Shown here piece after piece: positions 26,966 to 34,952 of a DNA stretch of 64,000 nucleotides; positions within the stretch are counted from its first letter, which is position 1; each line of letters starts with the position of its first letter. Below the pieces are notes generated by a model. That model did not search any database. It saw only the letters and a list, made by a program, of their open reading frames with translations, and was not told where the DNA came from. This stretch comes from Lentimicrobium sp. L6. Lineage in GTDB: Bacteria; Bacteroidota; Bacteroidia; Bacteroidales; UBA12170. The stretch spans positions 1 to 64,000 of the forward strand of contig NZ_JABKCA010000015.1 of assembly GCF_013166655.1 (NCBI RefSeq), in the 5' to 3' direction. The position numbers and the translations under genes are program-made.

Positions 26966-28411
26966 TCAGTTGTGAATAAGCTTAAATACTTGCGTTTGCT
27001 CATCTGCTATTTTAACGAAAATAACTCCTTTATTTGTATTTTCAAGATCAATGTGTATATAATTTAGTCCATCATTTAGTGTGATAGACTCCTCCCGTAG
27101 TATATTCCCGTTAGAGTTGTAAATTAACATTTTAGCTTCTTTCATTTTTCCGCTATAGTAGTATTCCAATATACTATAATCTATGGCGGGATTAGGGAAA
27201 ATAATAGATTCCTGTTCTATTGATTCTGACTTCAAATGGCTTCGCCCTTTTCCGTTTACAATCACCATTTGTGATCTTGCCTTAACTCCGGTGATATCCG
27301 CGTTAACAAGGTAATGTCCACTTGAAACATGATCGAAATAATAATCACCATTAGAATCTGTAGATTTGTAATCGATGAGTTCTTCTTGAGTATTATAAAG
27401 ATAGACCATAGGATTTCCCTCTATGTTTTCAGTGTTGAGAATATCAAAAATAGAACCAGAAATTTCTGCTGTGCCTGATTTATTATCTTTTTTCTCAACC
27501 ATACTTAGGTCTTCTCGGAATTTATCCTGTGCTAGATTAATAATTTCTGCTTCGTCCCATTGAGTTGTATTTCCAACATAGGTAGGTGCGTATTGCCTGC
27601 TATGATTAGAATTTTCAGTAAAATGGGTTTTAATGATATAATAGGATTTCAATTTTGCAGCAAACCAAAAATATCCAAAATCCACAAAATAATTGGTATC
27701 AATAGGGATGATGTTATTCTTATCCATTCTGTACAAATAGGCGATTCCTGTATCTCCAGTTGGGTAGGGGTTATTCATTAACGAATCACCAAAAAACACT
27801 TGTCCGCCTAAATTATAATATTCTGAAGTAGTTAGTCCTTGACAGGTTATTTTTTGTATGGTAGATGTATCATTGAAATAATATTTTGCTGTTAAACAAA
27901 CTTGATAATCAGTGTCTTGGTATGTGTAGCTATGTGTTGTATCTTCCACATTTGTTAATACACCTTCGCCAAAATCCCATAATAAGTAATCATAACTTCC
28001 TTCAATTTCACTTGCAAAATGGAAGGTGTTTGGAATGTGGTAATTACTATCGAGCTTAAAAGTAAAACTGATTTCCAATGGGACTTCTATGTTTACTTCT
28101 TTACTGATTTCATCTTGCGTAAATTCATTTGAAATACTTAAGGTCACAATAAAGTTCCCTGCTTCTGGAAAATAGTGAAAAGGATTACTTGCATTACTAG
28201 TGCTGCCATCTCCAAAGTTCCACAAGTAATCAGTAGGGTTTCCTGTTGATAAGTCTTTAAATTGAATAACACTAGGTTTCCCTATGGTTATAGATTCTTC
28301 AAAGGAGAAATTAGCGACACATAAGGTATCTCTTTGTGCAATCGTTATTTGGCTTATGATAGCCAAGAATCCGATAAGTATAAGTCTGAAGGCTTTTTCT
28401 ATCTTTTTCAT
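26966..28411 (-). CDS. PKD-domain T9SS surface protein, third gene of sigma cassette 1
   Basis: A 481-residue secreted protein. Signal peptide (about 1-25, ITIAQ), then two PKD-like repeats (about 30-190; the first has YLWNFGDGSTSNASNP, the second LLWDFGEGVLTN). Next comes a region (about 195-395) homologous to the product at 31101-32078 (shared GGQVFF, WDEAEIINL, ISGSIFDI, NGDYYFDHV). It ends in a T9SS type A sorting domain (about 405-481, SIIFPNPAIDYSILEY). It starts 4 bases after the barrel gene, so it is part of a sigma-barrel-surface protein operon. It could be the surface ligand or cargo of the cassette, which is an inference. Confidence 0.85.
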   Translation of the reverse strand: MKKIEKAFRLILIGFLAIISQITIAQRDTLCVANFSFEESITIGKPSVIQFKDLSTGNPTDYLWNFGDGSTSNASNPFHYFPEAGNFIVTLSISNEFTQDEISKEVNIEVPLEISFTFKLDSNYHIPNTFHFASEIEGSYDYLLWDFGEGVLTNVEDTTHSYTYQDTDYQVCLTAKYYFNDTSTIQKITCQGLTTSEYYNLGGQVFFGDSLMNNPYPTGDTGIAYLYRMDKNNIIPIDTNYFVDFGYFWFAAKLKSYYIIKTHFTENSNHSRQYAPTYVGNTTQWDEAEIINLAQDKFREDLSMVEKKDNKSGTAEISGSIFDILNTENIEGNPMVYLYNTQEELIDYKSTDSNGDYYFDHVSSGHYLVNADITGVKARSQMVIVNGKGRSHLKSESIEQESIIFPNPAIDYSILEYYYSGKMKEAKMLIYNSNGNILREESITLNDGLNYIHIDLENTNKGVIFVKIADEQTQVFKLIHN

Positions 28412-28415
28412 AGGG

Positions 28416-29903
28416 CTATCTATTAAATTTGTATTTAATCCCTATTTGCAATCCAAATGCAAATGGGCCATTATTGGAGTTTCCTTTTATTTCGTAAGGG
28501 CTTTTAACATAATAGTTGAGCCTTGGTTCTGCATAAATCCACCAATTTGGTAAAATACTAAAGTTATTTTCCAAACCTATTCCCACTTGTAGATAGGTGT
28601 CGTTATGCTTTATTGTAATATTCTCTAATTGATAATATCCTGCTAGGGCACTGGACATATTATTGCTTTCGGTATAATTTGACCATCCCAAATTAGCAGA
28701 TACTTTTGCCATTAATTCATACTTTGGCTTTCGATAAAGTCGATAAGAGAAGTCTATTGGGATAAATATCCATCTTCTTTTTTGGTCTGGGCCTTGAACT
28801 TCAGATTGATTATCAATGGAGTCGAAAAGGCTTCTTATAGTATAGTGAATGATAATAGAGTCTGAGGAATTTGGTGCTTGTTCGTAATAATCAATATCAT
28901 AAAAGAATCCAACGCTATCGTAAGTGGAATAATGAGCCATAAACCGGCTTGGAGTTTTTTCTGTTTTTACTCCAATACCAATACTCATAGACCATTTTTT
29001 ATACTCTATACCAGCCTTAACTCCAAGTTGGTGATTGTTTACATACATCTCTTCGGAAGAAATAGGCCATTCTGGAGTATAATTTGCTCCCACAAACCAA
29101 GTCAGATTTGTTGGCTCTTCATCAGCTAAATCCTTTATTTCATCATCAGTAATGACTGGAGCAATTATTTTTTGATGTTTAGAGGATGTTTCACTATTTA
29201 GTTCTTCCTTATTTGCTGGAGCTGGCTCAGACTTAGTGTTTTCTTCTTTTGTATTTTGAGTAGCCGTTTTTTCTTGAGCTACCGGAGTAGTTGTTAAGCC
29301 ATATTCTGTAGTTGAATTTGAATTTTCATCAGAAATATTATCTATGGATTCAGCTTTGTTTTCATCAATATCATCTGTACTATTAGACTCGTTTTCTTTA
29401 GGTTCTATATTTGAAACTGGAGCAGAAATGTCAGTTACAGGATTGGGTTCGATTTCCTTGTTTTGTACTTTACTCTTTTTTCTAATAATAGAAGCTTTAG
29501 TAATGTCTTGTTCTTTATCTATTTCATCAATGGGTTCCAATTCTGTAATAATCTCAGTTTCTGCACTAGAATTCACCTCGTCTTCAGTGAGTTGGTAAGT
29601 TTCCTTCTGGTCAGCTTTTACTTCTTCGGTATTAGATGCAATGATGACTTCAGTAGTCTTAGGCGTTTCAGAGGGAGAATCTTCTTGGTTCATTTGGTAG
29701 ATGGTAAATCCTGCGAATGCGGTTACGGCAGCTACACCTGTGTATAGCCAAGACTTTCCGATATTCGAAAAGTTTAATCTGATGAGTTCTAATAGGATCA
29801 ATTTTTTGGAAACTCCTTTCCAAACATTTTTAGAGGGAGCCATCTCTAGATTACCTAGAGAGTCTCTCAAAAAATTGTCCATATTTTGTTTTTCTTTTGC
29901 CAT
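28416..29903 (-). CDS. Predicted envelope-spanning anti-sigma/beta-barrel hybrid, cassette 1
   Basis: A 495-residue protein encoded directly after an ECF sigma factor with a TAATG overlap. A 50-residue N-terminal segment (FLRDSLGNLEMAPSKNVWKG) matches the motif in the cassette 2 protein. One TM helix follows (about 51-70), then an acidic Glu/Thr/Ser/Asn-rich linker (about 71-268). A C-terminal outer-membrane barrel-like domain (about 269-495) starts WFVGANYTPEW and ends GLQIGIKYKFNR. The position suggests that the N-terminus binds the sigma factor, but no classical zinc anti-sigma motif is seen. If both membrane parts are real, one chain spans the periplasm. Alternatively the helix is a late signal peptide. 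Confidence 0.7.
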   Translation of the reverse strand: MAKEKQNMDNFLRDSLGNLEMAPSKNVWKGVSKKLILLELIRLNFSNIGKSWLYTGVAAVTAFAGFTIYQMNQEDSPSETPKTTEVIIASNTEEVKADQKETYQLTEDEVNSSAETEIITELEPIDEIDKEQDITKASIIRKKSKVQNKEIEPNPVTDISAPVSNIEPKENESNSTDDIDENKAESIDNISDENSNSTTEYGLTTTPVAQEKTATQNTKEENTKSEPAPANKEELNSETSSKHQKIIAPVITDDEIKDLADEEPTNLTWFVGANYTPEWPISSEEMYVNNHQLGVKAGIEYKKWSMSIGIGVKTEKTPSRFMAHYSTYDSVGFFYDIDYYEQAPNSSDSIIIHYTIRSLFDSIDNQSEVQGPDQKRRWIFIPIDFSYRLYRKPKYELMAKVSANLGWSNYTESNNMSSALAGYYQLENITIKHNDTYLQVGIGLENNFSILPNWWIYAEPRLNYYVKSPYEIKGNSNNGPFAFGLQIGIKYKFNR

Positions 29904-30454
29904 TAATCAGTGGGGCCTATTTGGCGGTTAAAAAATTCCTTCTTAAGTTTCTTTCTTGCTTTCAATAATTGCGTTTTCGATGTGTTCACAGAAATATTTA
30001 ACTCTTCAGCTATCTCTTTATGTGAGAATCCATCAAAAACATATAAGTTCAAAACCATCCTATATCCTTCAGGAAGTTCTTGAACAGATTTTAATACCAT
30101 TTCGGGTGAAACATGAGGCAAATATTCACTTTGCTCTTCTTCACCATCAACAATTTGTATATCATCAATGTCCTGACTATAATAATGCTTCAGGTTTTTA
30201 TGATAAGAGTTGATAGCTGTATTTATCATAATGCGTTTCATCCACGGTTCTAACGAACTCGATTTTTCTAATGATTTAATCTTATTAAATATTTTAATAA
30301 AACCCTCTTGCAGAATATCTTCTGCTTCGTCTCTGGATTTACTATATCTCATGCACAGCCCTAATAGACTAGAAGCGTACTTTTTATAAAGCACAGCTTG
30401 TGCCTTACGCTTGCCTATTTTGCAGTCGTGTATGAGGTCATCCAAAGCTTTCAT
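29903..30454 (-). CDS. ECF sigma factor, cassette 1
   Basis: A 183-residue sigma-70 family extracytoplasmic-function sigma factor. Region 2 (about 15-85) includes RDEAEDILQEGFIKIFNKI and the -10 recognition helix WMKRIMINTAINSYHK. Region 4 (about 120-175) has LPEGYRMVLNLYVFDGFSHK and the HTH IAEELNISVNTSKTQLLKAR. Its stop codon overlaps the next start by one base (TAATG), implying coupled translation. It is paralogous to the sigma factor at 33470-33997. No TAnnTTTG box precedes it, so autoregulation through its own promoter type is possible. Confidence 0.93.
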   Translation of the reverse strand: MKALDDLIHDCKIGKRKAQAVLYKKYASSLLGLCMRYSKSRDEAEDILQEGFIKIFNKIKSLEKSSSLEPWMKRIMINTAINSYHKNLKHYYSQDIDDIQIVDGEEEQSEYLPHVSPEMVLKSVQELPEGYRMVLNLYVFDGFSHKEIAEELNISVNTSKTQLLKARKKLKKEFFNRQIGPTD

Positions 30455-30600
30455 TCAATCAAATTCGTTTGTAAGACAGCATATATGAAATGTGGTTGCC
30501 TATTGTTTTAATGAAGGATAAAATTACATATTTAATAAATACTAGTAGATATATAATCTACAGAAATCTAATTATTTATATGTTTTATTTATAATGTAAA

Positions 30601-30630
30601 AGGGCAGCTTTAATTTTTAAAGCTACCCTT
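30601..30630 (-). terminator. Terminator after the Tat-signal gene
   Basis: A stem of about 13 bp with one mismatch (30601-30613 with 30617-30630) on the 3' side of the minus-strand gene ending at 30652. A weak U-tract on the minus strand follows (30598-30600 and beyond). Confidence 0.5.
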
Positions 30631-30651
30631 GGTATGTGTTTGAATTTCAGG

Positions 30652-31011
30652 TTAGAAAGTCTGATCGATTTCTGCAGTAAGCTTTTTTGAAATTCTTAAG
30701 TAGTCTTTTAAAAAACCAGGATCACTAAAGCGGTTCTTAAATTTGGGCATCATTTCTTCCATTTGGGCTGGAAGATGAACTAGAGCATCATTATCTTTAA
30801 ATTCTCTTCCCAATTCTTTCTCAGCATTAATCTCTTTGATATAGGATTCCACCCATTCATTAAAGTCCTTAAGCAATTCTTTATTTGATAAATGATCCCA
30901 ATTTTCTTCGTTTAAACTATTGGAAAATAATGGTTTGCTTGCACCAAGTACTGGGATAGCAGCAGCGGTAACTACCGTTTTTTTAAGAAAGTTTCTTCTA
31001 GAGTTGCTCAT
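30652..31011 (-). CDS. Small Tat-signal protein of unknown function
   Basis: A 119-residue protein beginning with a twin-arginine signal (SRRNFLKK followed by the hydrophobic stretch TVVTAAAIPVLGASKP), so it is predicted to be exported folded. The mature part of about 90 residues is helical and charged, without cysteines or a recognisable cofactor motif. It sits between the two sigma cassettes, on the same strand, with its own TAATTTTG box at 31027-31034 and a hairpin downstream. I do not recognise the family. A link to the cassettes is only positional. Confidence 0.65.
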   Translation of the reverse strand: MSNSRRNFLKKTVVTAAAIPVLGASKPLFSNSLNEENWDHLSNKELLKDFNEWVESYIKEINAEKELGREFKDNDALVHLPAQMEEMMPKFKNRFSDPGFLKDYLRISKKLTAEIDQTF

Positions 31012-31026
31012 GATTTTATTTTAGGT

Positions 31027-31034
31027 CAAAATTA
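31027..31034 (-). promoter_or_regulatory. -7 box for the Tat-signal gene
   Basis: TAATTTTG on the minus strand, 15 bases before the ATG at 31011. Confidence 0.4.
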
Positions 31035-31100
31035 GGATTGTTCCACTTAAGAAAAAAACAGTTAGACCTAAAAAGTGTGAATCAAATGTTAAGAAAATAA

Positions 31101-32078
31101 TTAGTGGCTAATCACTAATTTTTGAGTACTGGCAAGTGATCCATCAATCAGAATCTCTAGGATATAATATCCATTTTGCCAATCTCCAACTGTTAAGGTA
31201 TTTGAATAATCGCTAGAAGTCAGTTTAGCCGATTCTTCAAAAACAACCCTACCACTAAGGTCTGATATTCTAGTTTGAATATTTTTGTTTCCACTGGTAT
31301 TGAATTGAATATTGATAAGACTAGAAGCAGGATTTGGGAAAAATCTAAAAGATTCTTCGCTAATCAATGCTTCATTAATGGAACTACTGATATAGCCATC
31401 TTCTATACTGATTTCTATTTCCTGGTGCACCGCATGCTCAGGACTAATTATTATTTCAATTGGGTTGGTAGTCATACCAATAATTTGAGGAAATAGTACA
31501 TAGGTACCATATTCTAGATTTTCAAAATTAAATTGTCCAAATTCATTTGTTGGGTAATGAACTACTGATTCCATGTTTTCATCAAAAATGATAACATCAA
31601 CATCAGCTACAAATGGTTTCCCACTAATTTGGAATATAGTACCACTTATTTTCCCGGGTCCATTGGGAGAACCTTCAGATTGTTGAACAACCATATCAAT
31701 ATCATATTCCCAGGATGTTTCGGTAAGATGAATAACTTCTGCTTCTTGCCAAAATGCATTATTTGGATAGTAGGTAGATGAAAATGCGCTAAAATTTGGA
31801 TCTTCAGGAAGTAATCTTGCTAAAACAAGGTAGTCGCCAGCAGGTTTTCTATAAAAATAATAATAACCTAAGGTATCTATATTGGCATCATCAAGTCTTT
31901 CATTTGTTAAGGCATTATATAAAACAGCTTGACCTATTTTGATCGGGAAATCTTTGGTAAACACATGTCCACCAAAGCTATACCTTTCTTTAGCTTGTTC
32001 AGCTTTTTGTGCCATGATATCTTCCGAAAAAGAAATCAAGCTCAGTAAAAAACCAATGACAAGTATATATTTTTTCAT
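31101..32078 (-). CDS. T9SS surface protein, third gene of sigma cassette 2
   Basis: A 325-residue secreted protein. Signal peptide (about 1-24, IMAQ), then two carboxypeptidase-regulatory-like beta domains (about 32-240: YSFGGHVF, WQEAEVIHL, ISGTIFQISG, FGQFNFENLEYGTYVLFP), and a T9SS type A sorting domain (about 248-325, FRFFPNPASSLINIQF). It is homologous to the middle of the protein at 26966-28411 but lacks that protein's PKD repeats. It begins 9 bases after the barrel gene of cassette 2. The role is unknown; a secreted partner of the cassette is the simplest reading. Confidence 0.85.
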   Translation of the reverse strand: MKKYILVIGFLLSLISFSEDIMAQKAEQAKERYSFGGHVFTKDFPIKIGQAVLYNALTNERLDDANIDTLGYYYFYRKPAGDYLVLARLLPEDPNFSAFSSTYYPNNAFWQEAEVIHLTETSWEYDIDMVVQQSEGSPNGPGKISGTIFQISGKPFVADVDVIIFDENMESVVHYPTNEFGQFNFENLEYGTYVLFPQIIGMTTNPIEIIISPEHAVHQEIEISIEDGYISSSINEALISEESFRFFPNPASSLINIQFNTSGNKNIQTRISDLSGRVVFEESAKLTSSDYSNTLTVGDWQNGYYILEILIDGSLASTQKLVISH

Positions 32079-32087
32079 TTTATTCCT

Positions 32088-33470
32088 TTATTTTAAAACG
32101 TATTTAAAACCAATTTTCACTCCCAAACCATAAGGGTTTCCGCTGTTGTTACTCTCTACCAATGACTTGATATAATATCTAGCATTGGGTTCTAAACCGA
32201 ATCTGAAATTTTCAGTAATGTGATAATTAATGCCCACATTAATTTGTGCTTGTAAATTCCAATCGGTTCTTTGATGGTAAAGAGGAGTAGTTTTAATAAT
32301 GGTATTCAATTCTCCTTCAATGCTTGGAGTTGGAATATCTTGATAAATTAAGATACTTGCATTCAAGCCCGTTTTGGCATAGAAACTAAATTTCTTTCCA
32401 AGAGGAGTATAGTAACCAATATTAATCGGTATGTTTAAATAAGCGTAAGTATTTTTATTTTCTGTTATTGTTGCCTTGTCGAGGGTATCGTATATATTGA
32501 CCAATTTTGTGTAATATGTAGGAACTGGAGTTCCGCCTGAAGTATCAAAGGTCACATTATAAACATCTTGATAGGAGCCTTTAAAAACTGCTTCTTGATA
32601 ATCTACATGATAGATTCCATCATCTTTACTTAATGATGCACCAAGTCCTGTTTCTAAGAATAATTTACCAATATGATATTTAGCAGATAGATCTAAACCA
32701 TAAGATTGGATATTATTGTTGTTATCTGGAATAGTCACCCATTCAGGAGAAAATTCTAAACCTAATTCCCAATATTTCTCCTGACGGTGTCCTTGAGTCA
32801 TATCATCAAGAGCGTCCTCGTCGAAGAAGTCATAGCCAGCTTTTGTTGGCTCTGTATTAGAGATCTCTTTATTAATATTTGTTTCAATAGGAGTATTGTT
32901 ACTGATTGCTTTACCTTCTTTAGATACTATTTCTTCAGCAACTTCAACTTGTTCTTCTGTTTCTACTTCTATATGCACTTCTACAATAATAAAATTTTCT
33001 TGTAATTGGCTTTTGATTTCTTGATTAGACTCCTCTATGAGTTGTTCTTCTTTTTCTTCTGTTTTATCTATTTCACTGTTCGATTTTTCTTCAATAGGTA
33101 GTTCCTTTTCTATTTCAGAAATGATTTCCTCTTCTGTAAGATCTAAGTCCTTCTCAAAAGAAGGGGAGGCCATATTAATAGGCTTTGTTGTAGAATTAGA
33201 TTCGTTATAAGGAGTTGTAGGAGCTACTGGAGTAGATTCGTCTATCGAATTAAACTCGTCGTCTCCTAAATAGAAATATCCAGCTGTACTCAGAAGTAGA
33301 CCCAATAAAGAAGCAGCAGCCCACCATCTCCATTGAGATGATTTGCCGGCAGCGCCGCTCAATGCTTCCGCTTGAACGCCAGTCCAGATATGTGCAGGTG
33401 GTGCCACTTCATGATTCTGAAGCTTATCCCTGAAAATCTGGTCAAATTCCTTATGTGTATTATCTTCCAT
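32088..33470 (-). CDS. Predicted envelope-spanning anti-sigma/beta-barrel hybrid, cassette 2
   Basis: A 460-residue paralogue of the protein at 28416-29903. The N-terminal segment IFRDKLQNHEVAPPAHIWTG aligns with the cassette 1 motif. One TM helix lies at about 49-68. The linker (about 70-220) is strongly Glu-rich (for example EEIISEIEKELPIEEKSN). The C-terminal barrel-like part starts near YWELGLEFSPEW and ends GLGVKIGFKYVLK. Start and sigma stop overlap as TAATG. A signalling link from the outer membrane to the cytoplasmic sigma factor is inferred. Experimental topology is the open question, since barrel proteins normally lose their signal peptide. Confidence 0.7.
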   Translation of the reverse strand: MEDNTHKEFDQIFRDKLQNHEVAPPAHIWTGVQAEALSGAAGKSSQWRWWAAASLLGLLLSTAGYFYLGDDEFNSIDESTPVAPTTPYNESNSTTKPINMASPSFEKDLDLTEEEIISEIEKELPIEEKSNSEIDKTEEKEEQLIEESNQEIKSQLQENFIIVEVHIEVETEEQVEVAEEIVSKEGKAISNNTPIETNINKEISNTEPTKAGYDFFDEDALDDMTQGHRQEKYWELGLEFSPEWVTIPDNNNNIQSYGLDLSAKYHIGKLFLETGLGASLSKDDGIYHVDYQEAVFKGSYQDVYNVTFDTSGGTPVPTYYTKLVNIYDTLDKATITENKNTYAYLNIPINIGYYTPLGKKFSFYAKTGLNASILIYQDIPTPSIEGELNTIIKTTPLYHQRTDWNLQAQINVGINYHITENFRFGLEPNARYYIKSLVESNNSGNPYGLGVKIGFKYVLK

Positions 33471-33997
33471 TATTTTTTTACTACTCTTTTTTGCAAATAT
33501 GCTCTGGCTCTCGCCAATTGCGATTTACTTGTGTTTTCTGATATATTTAGCATGTCGCCAATTTCTCGATGGGTATATCCTTCAATAACATTGAGGTTGA
33601 ATACCGTTCTATATCCATCGGGTAACTTGCTGATAATCCCTAAAAGCTCATTTTCTGACATCTGATCAATGACAGAAACGGTATCGCTTTTTTCAAAAAT
33701 CATTACAGTATCTAAATCATTATAATTTCTATGCTTTAGATTTTTTTTGTAATAATTGATAGCGGTGTTGACAATGGTTCTTCTAATCCATCCTTCGAGG
33801 CTTCCTTCGTTTCTATAGGATGCTAAATTTGAGAAGACTTTTACAAATCCTTCTTGAAGGATATCATTGGCTTCATCTACATCTTTAGCAAACCTTAAAG
33901 ATACAGAATACATTTTCGATGCGTATTGATCGTAAAATGCTTTTTGAGCTCTAGGATTTCCTTGAATAACCTTTTTTATAAGTTTATCTTGTTGCAT
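33470..33997 (-). CDS. ECF sigma factor, cassette 2
   Basis: A 175-residue ECF sigma factor, paralogous to that at 29903-30454. Region 2 contains VDEANDILQEGFVKVFSNL and GWIRRTIVNTAINYYKKN. Region 4 contains LPDGYRTVFNLNVIEGYTHR and the HTH IGDMLNISENTSKSQLARAR. It is coupled to the next gene by TAATG, exactly as in cassette 1. No TAnnTTTG promoter is seen; the 9-mer TATTGTTTT occurs upstream of both sigma genes (34016-34024 here) at different distances. Confidence 0.93.
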   Translation of the reverse strand: MQQDKLIKKVIQGNPRAQKAFYDQYASKMYSVSLRFAKDVDEANDILQEGFVKVFSNLASYRNEGSLEGWIRRTIVNTAINYYKKNLKHRNYNDLDTVMIFEKSDTVSVIDQMSENELLGIISKLPDGYRTVFNLNVIEGYTHREIGDMLNISENTSKSQLARARAYLQKRVVKK

Positions 33998-34407
33998 ATA
34001 GATTGTAAATGCCCGTATTGTTTTCGTGCGGTAAATTTAGAAATATATTTCACTAACGAAAAGCAGAACTGAAAATCTATGCAGAATAAATATAAATATG
34101 TCAAATTATCATGCTAAATAATTCAAAGAACGATATGCGATTAAATCAAAAGAGAATAATGGTCTGTGATGCAAAATATATAGACAAAAATGTGTCCAAA
34201 ATAGTTGCATAGGTTCATTATAATTTTTGATTAAAAATCGCTTTGTTTTAATTTAAAGGAATAGATCCTCTTGATGTTGACTAAGAGACCATTATATGAT
34301 CAATAAGGTTGCGTGGAAGATGGAAAAAAACACTAATTTAGAAGGTCACATATTTAACGTGCTTCGGAAAGGGTTAAGTTGCATTAAATCAAGGTTTAGT
34401 AGTTTTT
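33998..34407. other. 410-base intergenic region upstream of sigma cassette 2
   Basis: No credible gene is seen. A perfect 10-base inverted repeat ATAATGGTCT (34156-34165)/AGACCATTAT (34286-34295) encloses 120 bases. The part next to 33997 must hold the promoter of sigma cassette 2, but no standard -7 box is clear. Confidence 0.4.
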
Positions 34408-34869
34408 TTAAGGCTTTGTCTTTCTAGCTGAAAGATTAAAACCAACAATACCAAAGTTATCGGTATGTTGTGAATGAAGAATGATTTTGATTTTTAATAA
34501 TCCGTCGCTTTTTATTTTAAGGTCTTGCTTAAATGTCACAGGAAGTTCAAAACCATTATCTGCCTTTTTTCCCAAGGCTTGATATTCAAAATCAAGAATT
34601 CTTATGGTTTTGTCTTCCAATCTTTTTCCACCTTCAGGCAGGTATAGGTAAAACCCAAGTTCCATTTTCCTATTTTTATAGTTGGAATCAGTGATAATAG
34701 TTCCATCGAAACTATAGTTTTGACCAGCATCTACTTCAATTTCATAATTAAATTCATCAAATTTAAACCAGTTGTTGTCTTCGAATCTCTGTTGGGTTTC
34801 AAAAACAGTAGAATTAGTACAAGAGTAGGCTATAATAGATAATAAAAATATGAAGATTGTGTTTTTCAT
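34408..34869 (-). CDS. GldH-like lipoprotein
   Basis: A 153-residue lipoprotein with its lipobox cysteine at residue 17 (IIAYSC). The mature part resembles gliding-motility lipoprotein GldH: VFETQQRFEDNNWFKFDE near the anchor, a GFYLYLPEGGKRLEDKTI segment, FEYQALGKKADNGFELPV, and a C-terminal IVGFNLSARK strand. GldH is linked to gliding and T9SS assembly in Bacteroidota; here the similarity is by eye only. The ATG at 34869 begins the signal peptide; the longer frame is spurious. A TATCTTTG box lies upstream. The large T9SS gene upstream on the same strand ends in a terminator. Confidence 0.6.
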   Translation of the reverse strand: MKNTIFIFLLSIIAYSCTNSTVFETQQRFEDNNWFKFDEFNYEIEVDAGQNYSFDGTIITDSNYKNRKMELGFYLYLPEGGKRLEDKTIRILDFEYQALGKKADNGFELPVTFKQDLKIKSDGLLKIKIILHSQHTDNFGIVGFNLSARKTKP

Positions 34870-34890
34870 TGTAATTATAATATTAAAATG

Positions 34891-34898
34891 CAAAGATA
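34891..34898 (-). promoter_or_regulatory. -7 box for the GldH-like gene
   Basis: TATCTTTG on the minus strand, 21 bases before the ATG at 34869. It overlaps the T-tract of the preceding terminator. Confidence 0.45.
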
Positions 34899-34904
34899 AA
34901 AAAA

Positions 34905-34929
34905 GACGGATTGGTGGGGCCAATCCGTC
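34905..34929 (-). terminator. Terminator after the BNR-repeat T9SS gene
   Basis: A perfect 10-bp stem GACGGATTGG/CCAATCCGTC (34905-34914, 34920-34929) followed on the minus strand by seven T. Confidence 0.9.
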
Positions 34930-34952
34930 AATGAACAAAGCAGATAAATATT

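Follow-up and report, generated by a model that had tools for sequence, protein, structure and literature searches.

The window analysed here, a stretch of 64,000 nucleotides from Lentimicrobium sp. L6 (Bacteroidales; contig NZ_JABKCA010000015.1, positions 1 to 64,000), carries six open reading frames (ORFs) on its minus strand between positions 26966 and 33997. They form two adjoining trios, cassettes A and B, each of which encodes in turn an extracytoplasmic function (ECF) sigma factor, a Dma-family protein that joins a predicted anti-sigma region to a beta-barrel, and a cargo protein of the type IX secretion system (T9SS). Within each trio, neighbouring genes overlap by 1 base or are 4–9 bases apart. 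Cassette A consists of a sigma factor of 175 amino acids (aa; 33470..33997; TIGR02937 at 89.6 bits, cut-off 42.9), a 460-aa Dma-family anti-sigma/barrel protein predicted by homology and a structural model (P0002; 32088..33470), and a 325-aa cargo made up of a signal-like helix, two domains termed MID1 and MID2, and a sorting domain (P0003; 31101..32078). Cassette B consists of a 183-aa sigma factor recognized by Pfam and by BLAST to sigma A (29903..30454), a 495-aa Dma-family protein predicted by homology (28416..29903), and a 481-aa cargo with PKD, MID and sorting domains (P0006; 26966..28411). Pfam places sigma-70 regions 2 and 4 in both sigma factors. Pairwise BLAST aligns the sigma factors over 158 aa at 44% identity (E 2e-47), the Dma barrel hybrids over 507 columns at 21% (E 4e-15) and the T9SS proteins over 278 columns at 27% (E 4e-18). 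An earlier note on this DNA had described two tandem trios of the same order whose three products are all paralogous, and both points are borne out by these coordinates and alignments.

The middle protein spans the envelope in its predicted layout. In an AlphaFold model of P0002 built on a 45-sequence alignment (mean predicted local distance difference test, pLDDT, 74.0; predicted template modelling score 0.53), helices at residues 6–17 and 26–38 lie in the predicted anti-sigma region (residues 1–45; 33336..33470), followed by a single putative inner-membrane helix (residues 46–73; 33252..33335) and a probable periplasmic tether (residues 74–230; 32781..33251), most of which falls below a pLDDT of 50 (residues 77–214). 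The C-terminal part (residues 231–460; 32091..32780) is modelled as an outer-membrane barrel of eight long strands, with 10-residue pLDDT means of 90–98. Strands 270–309 and 316–357 form a long hairpin, of which residues 281–340 (32451..32630) are a candidate docking surface according to the model and the coevolution described below; by strand counting this segment probably faces the cell exterior, because the tether joins the barrel from the periplasm. The top Foldseek matches of the barrel by E-value are Ail, OmpA and NspA (E 3e-8 to 4e-7), with loose superpositions (root-mean-square deviation, rmsd, about 11–20), and all Pfam matches of Dma A and Dma B to outer-membrane protein barrels lie below the curated cut-off. 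The Dma family, as set out in the accessible part of PMC13088901, has an N-terminal anti-sigma domain, a transmembrane helix, a disordered tether and a barrel, and adjoins an ECF sigma gene. The modelled P0002 has each of these parts in this order, and both cassettes have the neighbouring sigma gene. Moreover, a Dma profile, built iteratively from Dma-like ORFs in the loci fetched in this study, matches the barrel gene of sigma–Dma–DUF4943 operons in two Bacteroides-like genomes (G385 and G059; E 5e-19 and 3e-16), and the sigma profile finds the sigma genes there (E 4e-58 and 7e-59). These genomes share one family label and belong to the same order as the source; their Dma2-type operons were recognized by gene order alone (sigma, barrel protein, DUF4943, fourth gene), this being the order published for dma2. 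Given the Dma layout and this profile homology, we read the barrel hybrid as a predicted anti-sigma factor and, by architecture and sequence, a member of the Dma family. The earlier note had the sigma factor controlled through a surface-linked barrel protein; the linkage of the trio stands, and the barrel hybrid has to be recast from a merely surface-linked component to the predicted anti-sigma factor itself.

The third gene encodes the likely secreted partner. MID denotes a conserved two-domain module that immediately precedes the T9SS sorting domain in the third-gene products of Bacteroidales. The model of P0003 (mean pLDDT 91.2) shows the signal-like helix, two domains and the sorting domain, which we assigned by second-look structural alignments. 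MID1 (residues 33–132; 31683..31982) is transthyretin-like and matches carboxypeptidase N (Z 9.5, rmsd 1.9, 77 aligned); MID2 (residues 140–228; 31395..31661) is CnaB- or carboxypeptidase-regulatory-like and matches CnaB2 (Z 11.1, rmsd 2.4, 88 aligned); and residues 235–325 (31104..31376) match the C-terminal domain (CTD) of PorU (Z 11.4, rmsd 2.2, 88 aligned). In P0006, the MID module was located by a MID alignment search (27242..27820) and is preceded by PKD domains according to Pfam. Both cargos carry Por_Secre_tail (52.6 and 35.4 bits; cut-off 27) and TIGR04183, the model for T9SS type A sorting domains (36.9 and 29.8 bits; cut-off 23). A T9SS translocon is present, as the genome encodes SprA (SprA_N, 590 bits), so that both cargos combine a type A sorting domain with a T9SS in the same genome. 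Fold matches of the MID protein (Foldseek, VIA) are transthyretin-, CnaB- and pilin-like and indicate no function, and the DUF4943 proteins of the Dma2-type operons gave no MID match. Partner proteins range up to 2236 aa. The MID module also occurs outside cassettes in large T9SS-type proteins of the source genome (L191, L192, L194 and L151 on contigs C5, C58, C16 and C30), in frames of up to 5990 aa. DUF4943 proteins likewise occur at four loci (L207, L208, L209 and L210) with no adjoining sigma–Dma pair in the fetched stretch.

Many Bacteroidales families carry the trio, as does one genome from outside the order. Searching the order with P0002 gave matches in 60 of 149 genomes (98 rows), from which 39 regions were fetched, covering about half of the rows, mostly the strongest, together with one locus of the source genome; most of these loci hold the sigma–Dma–MID/T9SS trio. 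A third trio lies in the source genome itself, on contig C51. From the MID side, the order was searched with a 44-sequence alignment. At E 1e-20 this search matched 51 of 148 genomes, with up to 22 first-look candidates of each genome being scored, and listed places not yet covered were fetched. The resulting census holds 124 ORFs above 70 bits after removal of duplicates, the fuller copy being kept. At 150 bits or more (n=58), 48 MID genes lie behind both sigma and Dma genes and 2, where a contig or locus ends, behind Dma alone, while 4 are cut off and 4 have neither gene. The corresponding numbers are 3, 1, 3 and 3 at 130–150 bits (n=10), 8, 2, 1 and 10 at 100–130 bits (n=21), and 8, 0, 7 and 20 at 70–100 bits (n=35). 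Cassette linkage is tight for strong MID homologues and falls stepwise with weaker ones. Whether the families are unlinked in most genomes, a question that the earlier note had raised as decisive, has a split answer: the strong homologues are linked, and the weaker ones are more often found apart from the cassette. Seen from the sigma genes, of which the loci hold 69, 57 have Dma and then MID behind them, a share biased upward by the choice of loci through Dma or MID matches; another 6 have Dma with no MID next to it, and 6 have no Dma directly behind them, 3 of these belonging to a FecR variant described below. MID was rejected as a phylum-wide marker: at E 1e-10 it matched 64 of 395 genomes. 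Among 20 MID loci fetched outside the order (15 genomes, out of 63 with matches besides the source), one is a full trio (L228), and in another (L227) sigma and Dma directly follow the MID gene.

The A-then-B tandem itself is found in five genomes, each with a different family label (the window, L051, L052, L054 and L059). All A cassettes separate from every B cassette in four trees, with support of 0.99 for the barrel, 0.87 for MID, 0.72 for the N-terminus and 0.43 for sigma, the last being a weakly backed split. Because of the tandem in five genomes and the A/B grouping in four trees, the pair must be old. A recent local duplication was considered and rejected, as the A and B cassettes of the five genomes group by type and not by genome.

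We also looked for coevolution of the three proteins by distance-matrix correlation across 55 trios from 35 genomes. Raw correlations were highest between barrel and MID (0.64) and between sigma and the Dma N-terminus (0.60); for N-terminus and barrel, which share one chain, the value was 0.43, for barrel and tail 0.43, and for MID and tail 0.44. In 1000 bootstrap replicates, the share in which the barrel–MID value was not the higher one was 0.002 for barrel–N-terminus, 0.000 for barrel–tail, 0.005 for MID–tail and 0.000 for MID–sigma. Scanned in windows against MID1, the barrel shows a peak at residues 281–340 (0.58–0.64, other windows 0.22–0.50), which is not seen against MID2, the tail or sigma region 2; the reverse scan over P0003 peaks at residues 33–93 (0.55–0.64, later windows 0.19–0.32). 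Partial correlations among seven variables were 0.48 for hairpin and MID1, −0.08 for the rest of the barrel and MID1, −0.08 for hairpin and sigma, and 0.50 for sigma and the N-terminus. Dropping the six clusters one at a time leaves the hairpin–MID1 value at 0.37–0.54. For the predicted binding and inhibition of sigma by the Dma N-terminus, the partial correlation of 0.47–0.50 between the two is an indirect sign.

Upstream of both sigma genes lies a promoter-like motif, on the minus strand in each case. Before sigma A it reads TGCAAC, an 18-base spacer and GTCT (34181..34209), ending 183 nt upstream of the gene; before sigma B it reads AGGCAAC, a 17-base spacer and GTCT (30473..30500), ending 18 nt upstream. 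When dyads were counted ahead of 54 sigma genes, GCAAC/GTCT was present in 27, and the best dyad in the one shuffled set counted alike reached 14. The first kind (TGCAAC, 18-base spacer) starts 215–261 nt before the start codon in 11 A cassettes and 41–58 nt before it in other cassettes; the second kind (AGGCAAC, 17-base and once 16-base spacer) stands mostly 35–52 nt upstream; four B cassettes have it, and the fifth (L059) has none. The general form GCAAC-N16-18-GTCT precedes 32 of 68 sigma genes, a circular count given that the motif was derived from sigma genes. Against a background of 7 in 646 other ORFs, it also precedes 4 of 8 MID genes that lie behind another MID gene (Fisher 3e-6) and 8 of 36 MID genes that have no cassette in view and are not cut off (Fisher 1e-7). 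It stands before only 3 of 63 MID genes directly behind Dma (p 0.05), and this scarcity matches the expectation for operon-internal genes. The window contains 4 matches against 0.68 expected, two of them the motifs before sigma A and sigma B. A stricter form of the motif matches the source genome at 15 places, and its reversed control at 3. Of the 15, 6 fall within ORFs, several others precede secreted proteins by eye, and none is on C30, C5, C58 or C16, the contigs of the MID genes outside cassettes.

Around the A motif, an additional GCAAC-N18-GTCT match lies about 80 nt further upstream (34286–34312, minus strand). The 183-nt stretch between the A motif and sigma A (33998–34180, minus strand) is comparably long in ten other motif-bearing A cassettes. 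A structured leader RNA was considered for it and dropped, there being no Rfam match in the window stretch; across 11 cassettes, the alignment from motif to start (193–239 nt including the first sigma codons) is of low conservation by eye. At a guess, a second promoter of housekeeping type may lie between the A motif and sigma A.

Relatives of the cassette rewire its inner part in several ways. Three loci with two family labels (L160, L163 and L165) have the order sigma, FecR, barrel protein and MID protein, and in each of them FecR exceeds its cut-off. L163 alone has an STN domain above the cut-off (28.9 bits, cut-off 28.4); none was detected in L160 and L165, whose N-termini appear similar by eye. 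The earlier note had set the locus apart from FecIR-type systems. For the window this is upheld, as none of the six cassette proteins matches a FecR domain in Pfam, and it becomes softer in these relatives, where barrel and MID stand behind a real FecR. In two further loci (L179 and L183), sigma is fused to an anti-sigma-like region, a transmembrane helix and a tether, followed by a separate barrel protein and then MID, and in L153 tether and barrel are on separate proteins. Barrel and MID remain together as the inner part varies. In a single case (L071), the protein encoded after a second sigma gene has 191 aa and combines a Dma-like N-terminus, a transmembrane helix and a MID1-like half domain, with no barrel. 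The sigma fusions (L179:305-1570 and L183:7356-8603) recall Dma3 as described in the accessible part of PMC13088901. Repeated DTV/DTI-rich stretches, seen by eye near the split-tether ends of L153, L160, L179 and L183, might pair with one another.

We lean towards reading both trios as trans-envelope sigma switches of the Dma type, each with a cognate surface partner exported by the T9SS. The Dma N-terminus would hold the ECF sigma factor in the cytoplasm, the single helix would cross the inner membrane and the disordered tether the periplasm, and the eight-stranded barrel would sit in the outer membrane with its long hairpin pointing outward. The third-gene product would be exported by the T9SS, and MID1 would dock on the hairpin. 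A change in docking, whether the partner arrives, is lost or captures a target with the domains ahead of MID, may then be relayed through the tether and free sigma. Acting at GCAAC-N16-18-GTCT promoters, sigma would transcribe the operon that encodes it and other T9SS genes with a MID module; the sign of this response is a conjecture. The minimal P0003 suggests that MID alone is sufficient for export and docking, and longer partners could carry an additional sensing or adhesive head. The claim of the earlier note that the trio is a conserved unit whose parts work together finds support in gene neighbourhood, coevolution and promoter evidence. In a wider form, which we put forward only tentatively and with some doubt, the barrel and its MID-bearing T9SS partner may constitute a portable surface-sensing module of Bacteroidales with at least three sigma wirings (tethered anti-sigma, split anti-sigma, and FecR via an STN-like domain), in which the T9SS protein would be the cognate ligand and sigma would read export and encounters and make more of that family from dedicated promoters.

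A number of observations weigh against the switch with a cognate partner. Below 150 bits, 33 MID genes have neither cassette gene and 19 have both; four loci (L079, L086, L087 and L088) hold sigma–Dma pairs without MID; and linkage on the Dma side is biased, as the order-wide search was seeded with the Dma protein of the window. The coevolution rests on only 55 sequences of low identity, and the excess of barrel–MID over barrel–sigma is marginal and not decisive (bootstrap share 0.056). The hairpin is also slightly raised against sigma region 4 (0.40–0.46) and the N-terminus (0.35–0.39), and the partial correlation of 0.36 between the rest of the barrel and sigma is not predicted by a simple contact chain. 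When partners were shuffled within genomes, the observed hairpin–MID1 value was reached in 0 of 1000 trials, and nine of ten other pairs were likewise reached in at most 2 of 1000 (hairpin–MID2, 40 of 1000); because nearly all other pairs behave alike, the shuffle shows co-inheritance of the cassette as a unit and not contact. The N-terminus of the Dma model has a pLDDT of only 58–79. Finally, deletion of the genes downstream of dma2 in the B. thetaiotaomicron dma2 mutant, which belong to other protein families, left vesiculation unaltered according to the accessible part of PMC13088901.

The chief rival is that the sigma–Dma pair senses general outer-membrane or lipopolysaccharide stress and that the T9SS protein is merely the first gene of its regulon, sharing the operon so as to be co-expressed and making no contact with the barrel. 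For a comparable pair in Phocaeicola vulgatus, whose anti-sigma factor also spans the membranes, envelope stress is reported as the likely trigger (PMC9308784, in the part accessible), the promoter motif at cassette-free MID genes is what regulon members would have, sigma–Dma pairs do occur without MID, and the third place in Dma2-type operons is taken by a DUF4943 protein. This account, however, does not predict a hairpin–MID1 correlation that leaves out MID2, the sorting domain and sigma after partial correction, nor that a related barrel and MID persist where FecR replaces the anti-sigma part. Docking is favoured because of this coevolution pattern and the rewired relatives, and we regard mere co-expression as unlikely, while still a serious contender. 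It is improbable that the barrel serves chiefly to anchor the T9SS partner at the surface or to aid its secretion, with the sigma coupling tuning supply. The PorP–PG1035 and SprF–SprB complexes offer a precedent (PMC9143113, in the part accessible), but there the partners have type B CTDs and the barrels 14 strands, whereas the sorting domains here match the type A model and the barrel has eight long strands; anchoring alone also leaves the anti-sigma N-terminus unexplained. That the six ORFs are three kinds of unrelated neighbours, adjacent and similar through one recent duplication and devoid of shared function, can draw on the low pairwise identity of the two barrel proteins and is scarcely credible in view of the recurrence of the trio, the grouping of A and B cassettes by type and the linkage of strong MID homologues.

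Two further ORFs lie beside the cassettes. Between the cassettes lies a 119-aa ORF with a twin-arginine translocation (Tat)-like signal and no Pfam family above the cut-off (30652–31011, minus strand), and upstream of cassette A lies a GldH-like lipoprotein that scores 24.4 bits, below the cut-off of 27 (34408–34938, minus strand).

If the cognate-partner switch is correct, T9SS export would be coupled to gene control through one protein that crosses the whole envelope. It also supplies named candidates, a surface protein, hairpin residues 281–340 with residues 33–93 of P0003, and a promoter motif, and thereby makes the question of what Dma proteins sense directly testable. In FecIR and other TonB-dependent signalling, an outer-membrane receptor informs a sigma factor. 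In the window, by contrast, a single chain with a small barrel would serve as both receptor and anti-sigma factor, and FecR gives no match; the likeness to FecIR is closer in the three FecR-using relatives, one of them with an STN domain above the cut-off. The Dma/Das systems of Bacteroides thetaiotaomicron (Dma1–3) were reportedly founded on the work of Pardue et al. (PNAS 2024). As described in the accessible part of PMC13088901, they resemble the present cassettes in having an ECF sigma gene followed by a protein with a sigma-binding N-terminus, helix, tether and barrel, and, in the dma2 operon, a third gene; for the signal, the authors of that study hypothesize an unknown glycan at the outer-membrane surface. 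The differences lie in the third gene, a T9SS cargo with MID here and a DUF4943 protein in Dma2, and in the tandem cassettes, the two kinds of promoter and the relatives with split barrel or FecR coupling. No T9SS partner of a Dma anti-sigma factor was reported among the records listed in the literature searches, which excluded the founding paper and are no proof of absence, and the accessible parts of PMC8999054, PMC12596196 and PMC12045153 offered no further information about a third gene. The P. vulgatus pair has the same kind of anti-sigma factor with an outer-membrane barrel, and no T9SS partner is described in that part of PMC9308784. PorP-like barrels resemble the proposed arrangement in being bound to their own T9SS cargo; these pairs differ further in the FadL-family fold of the barrel and in having no sigma factor (PMC9143113, same part). 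In Porphyromonas gingivalis, PorA–PorXY–SigP places a CTD-bearing surface protein upstream of an ECF sigma factor, as proposed here, but its relay is a two-component system, with no barrel anti-sigma described in the accessible part of PMC7712824. Dma switches, barrel–cargo pairs and signalling from a CTD protein to SigP have thus already been published; what appears to be new is a third gene that encodes a T9SS cargo with a MID module.

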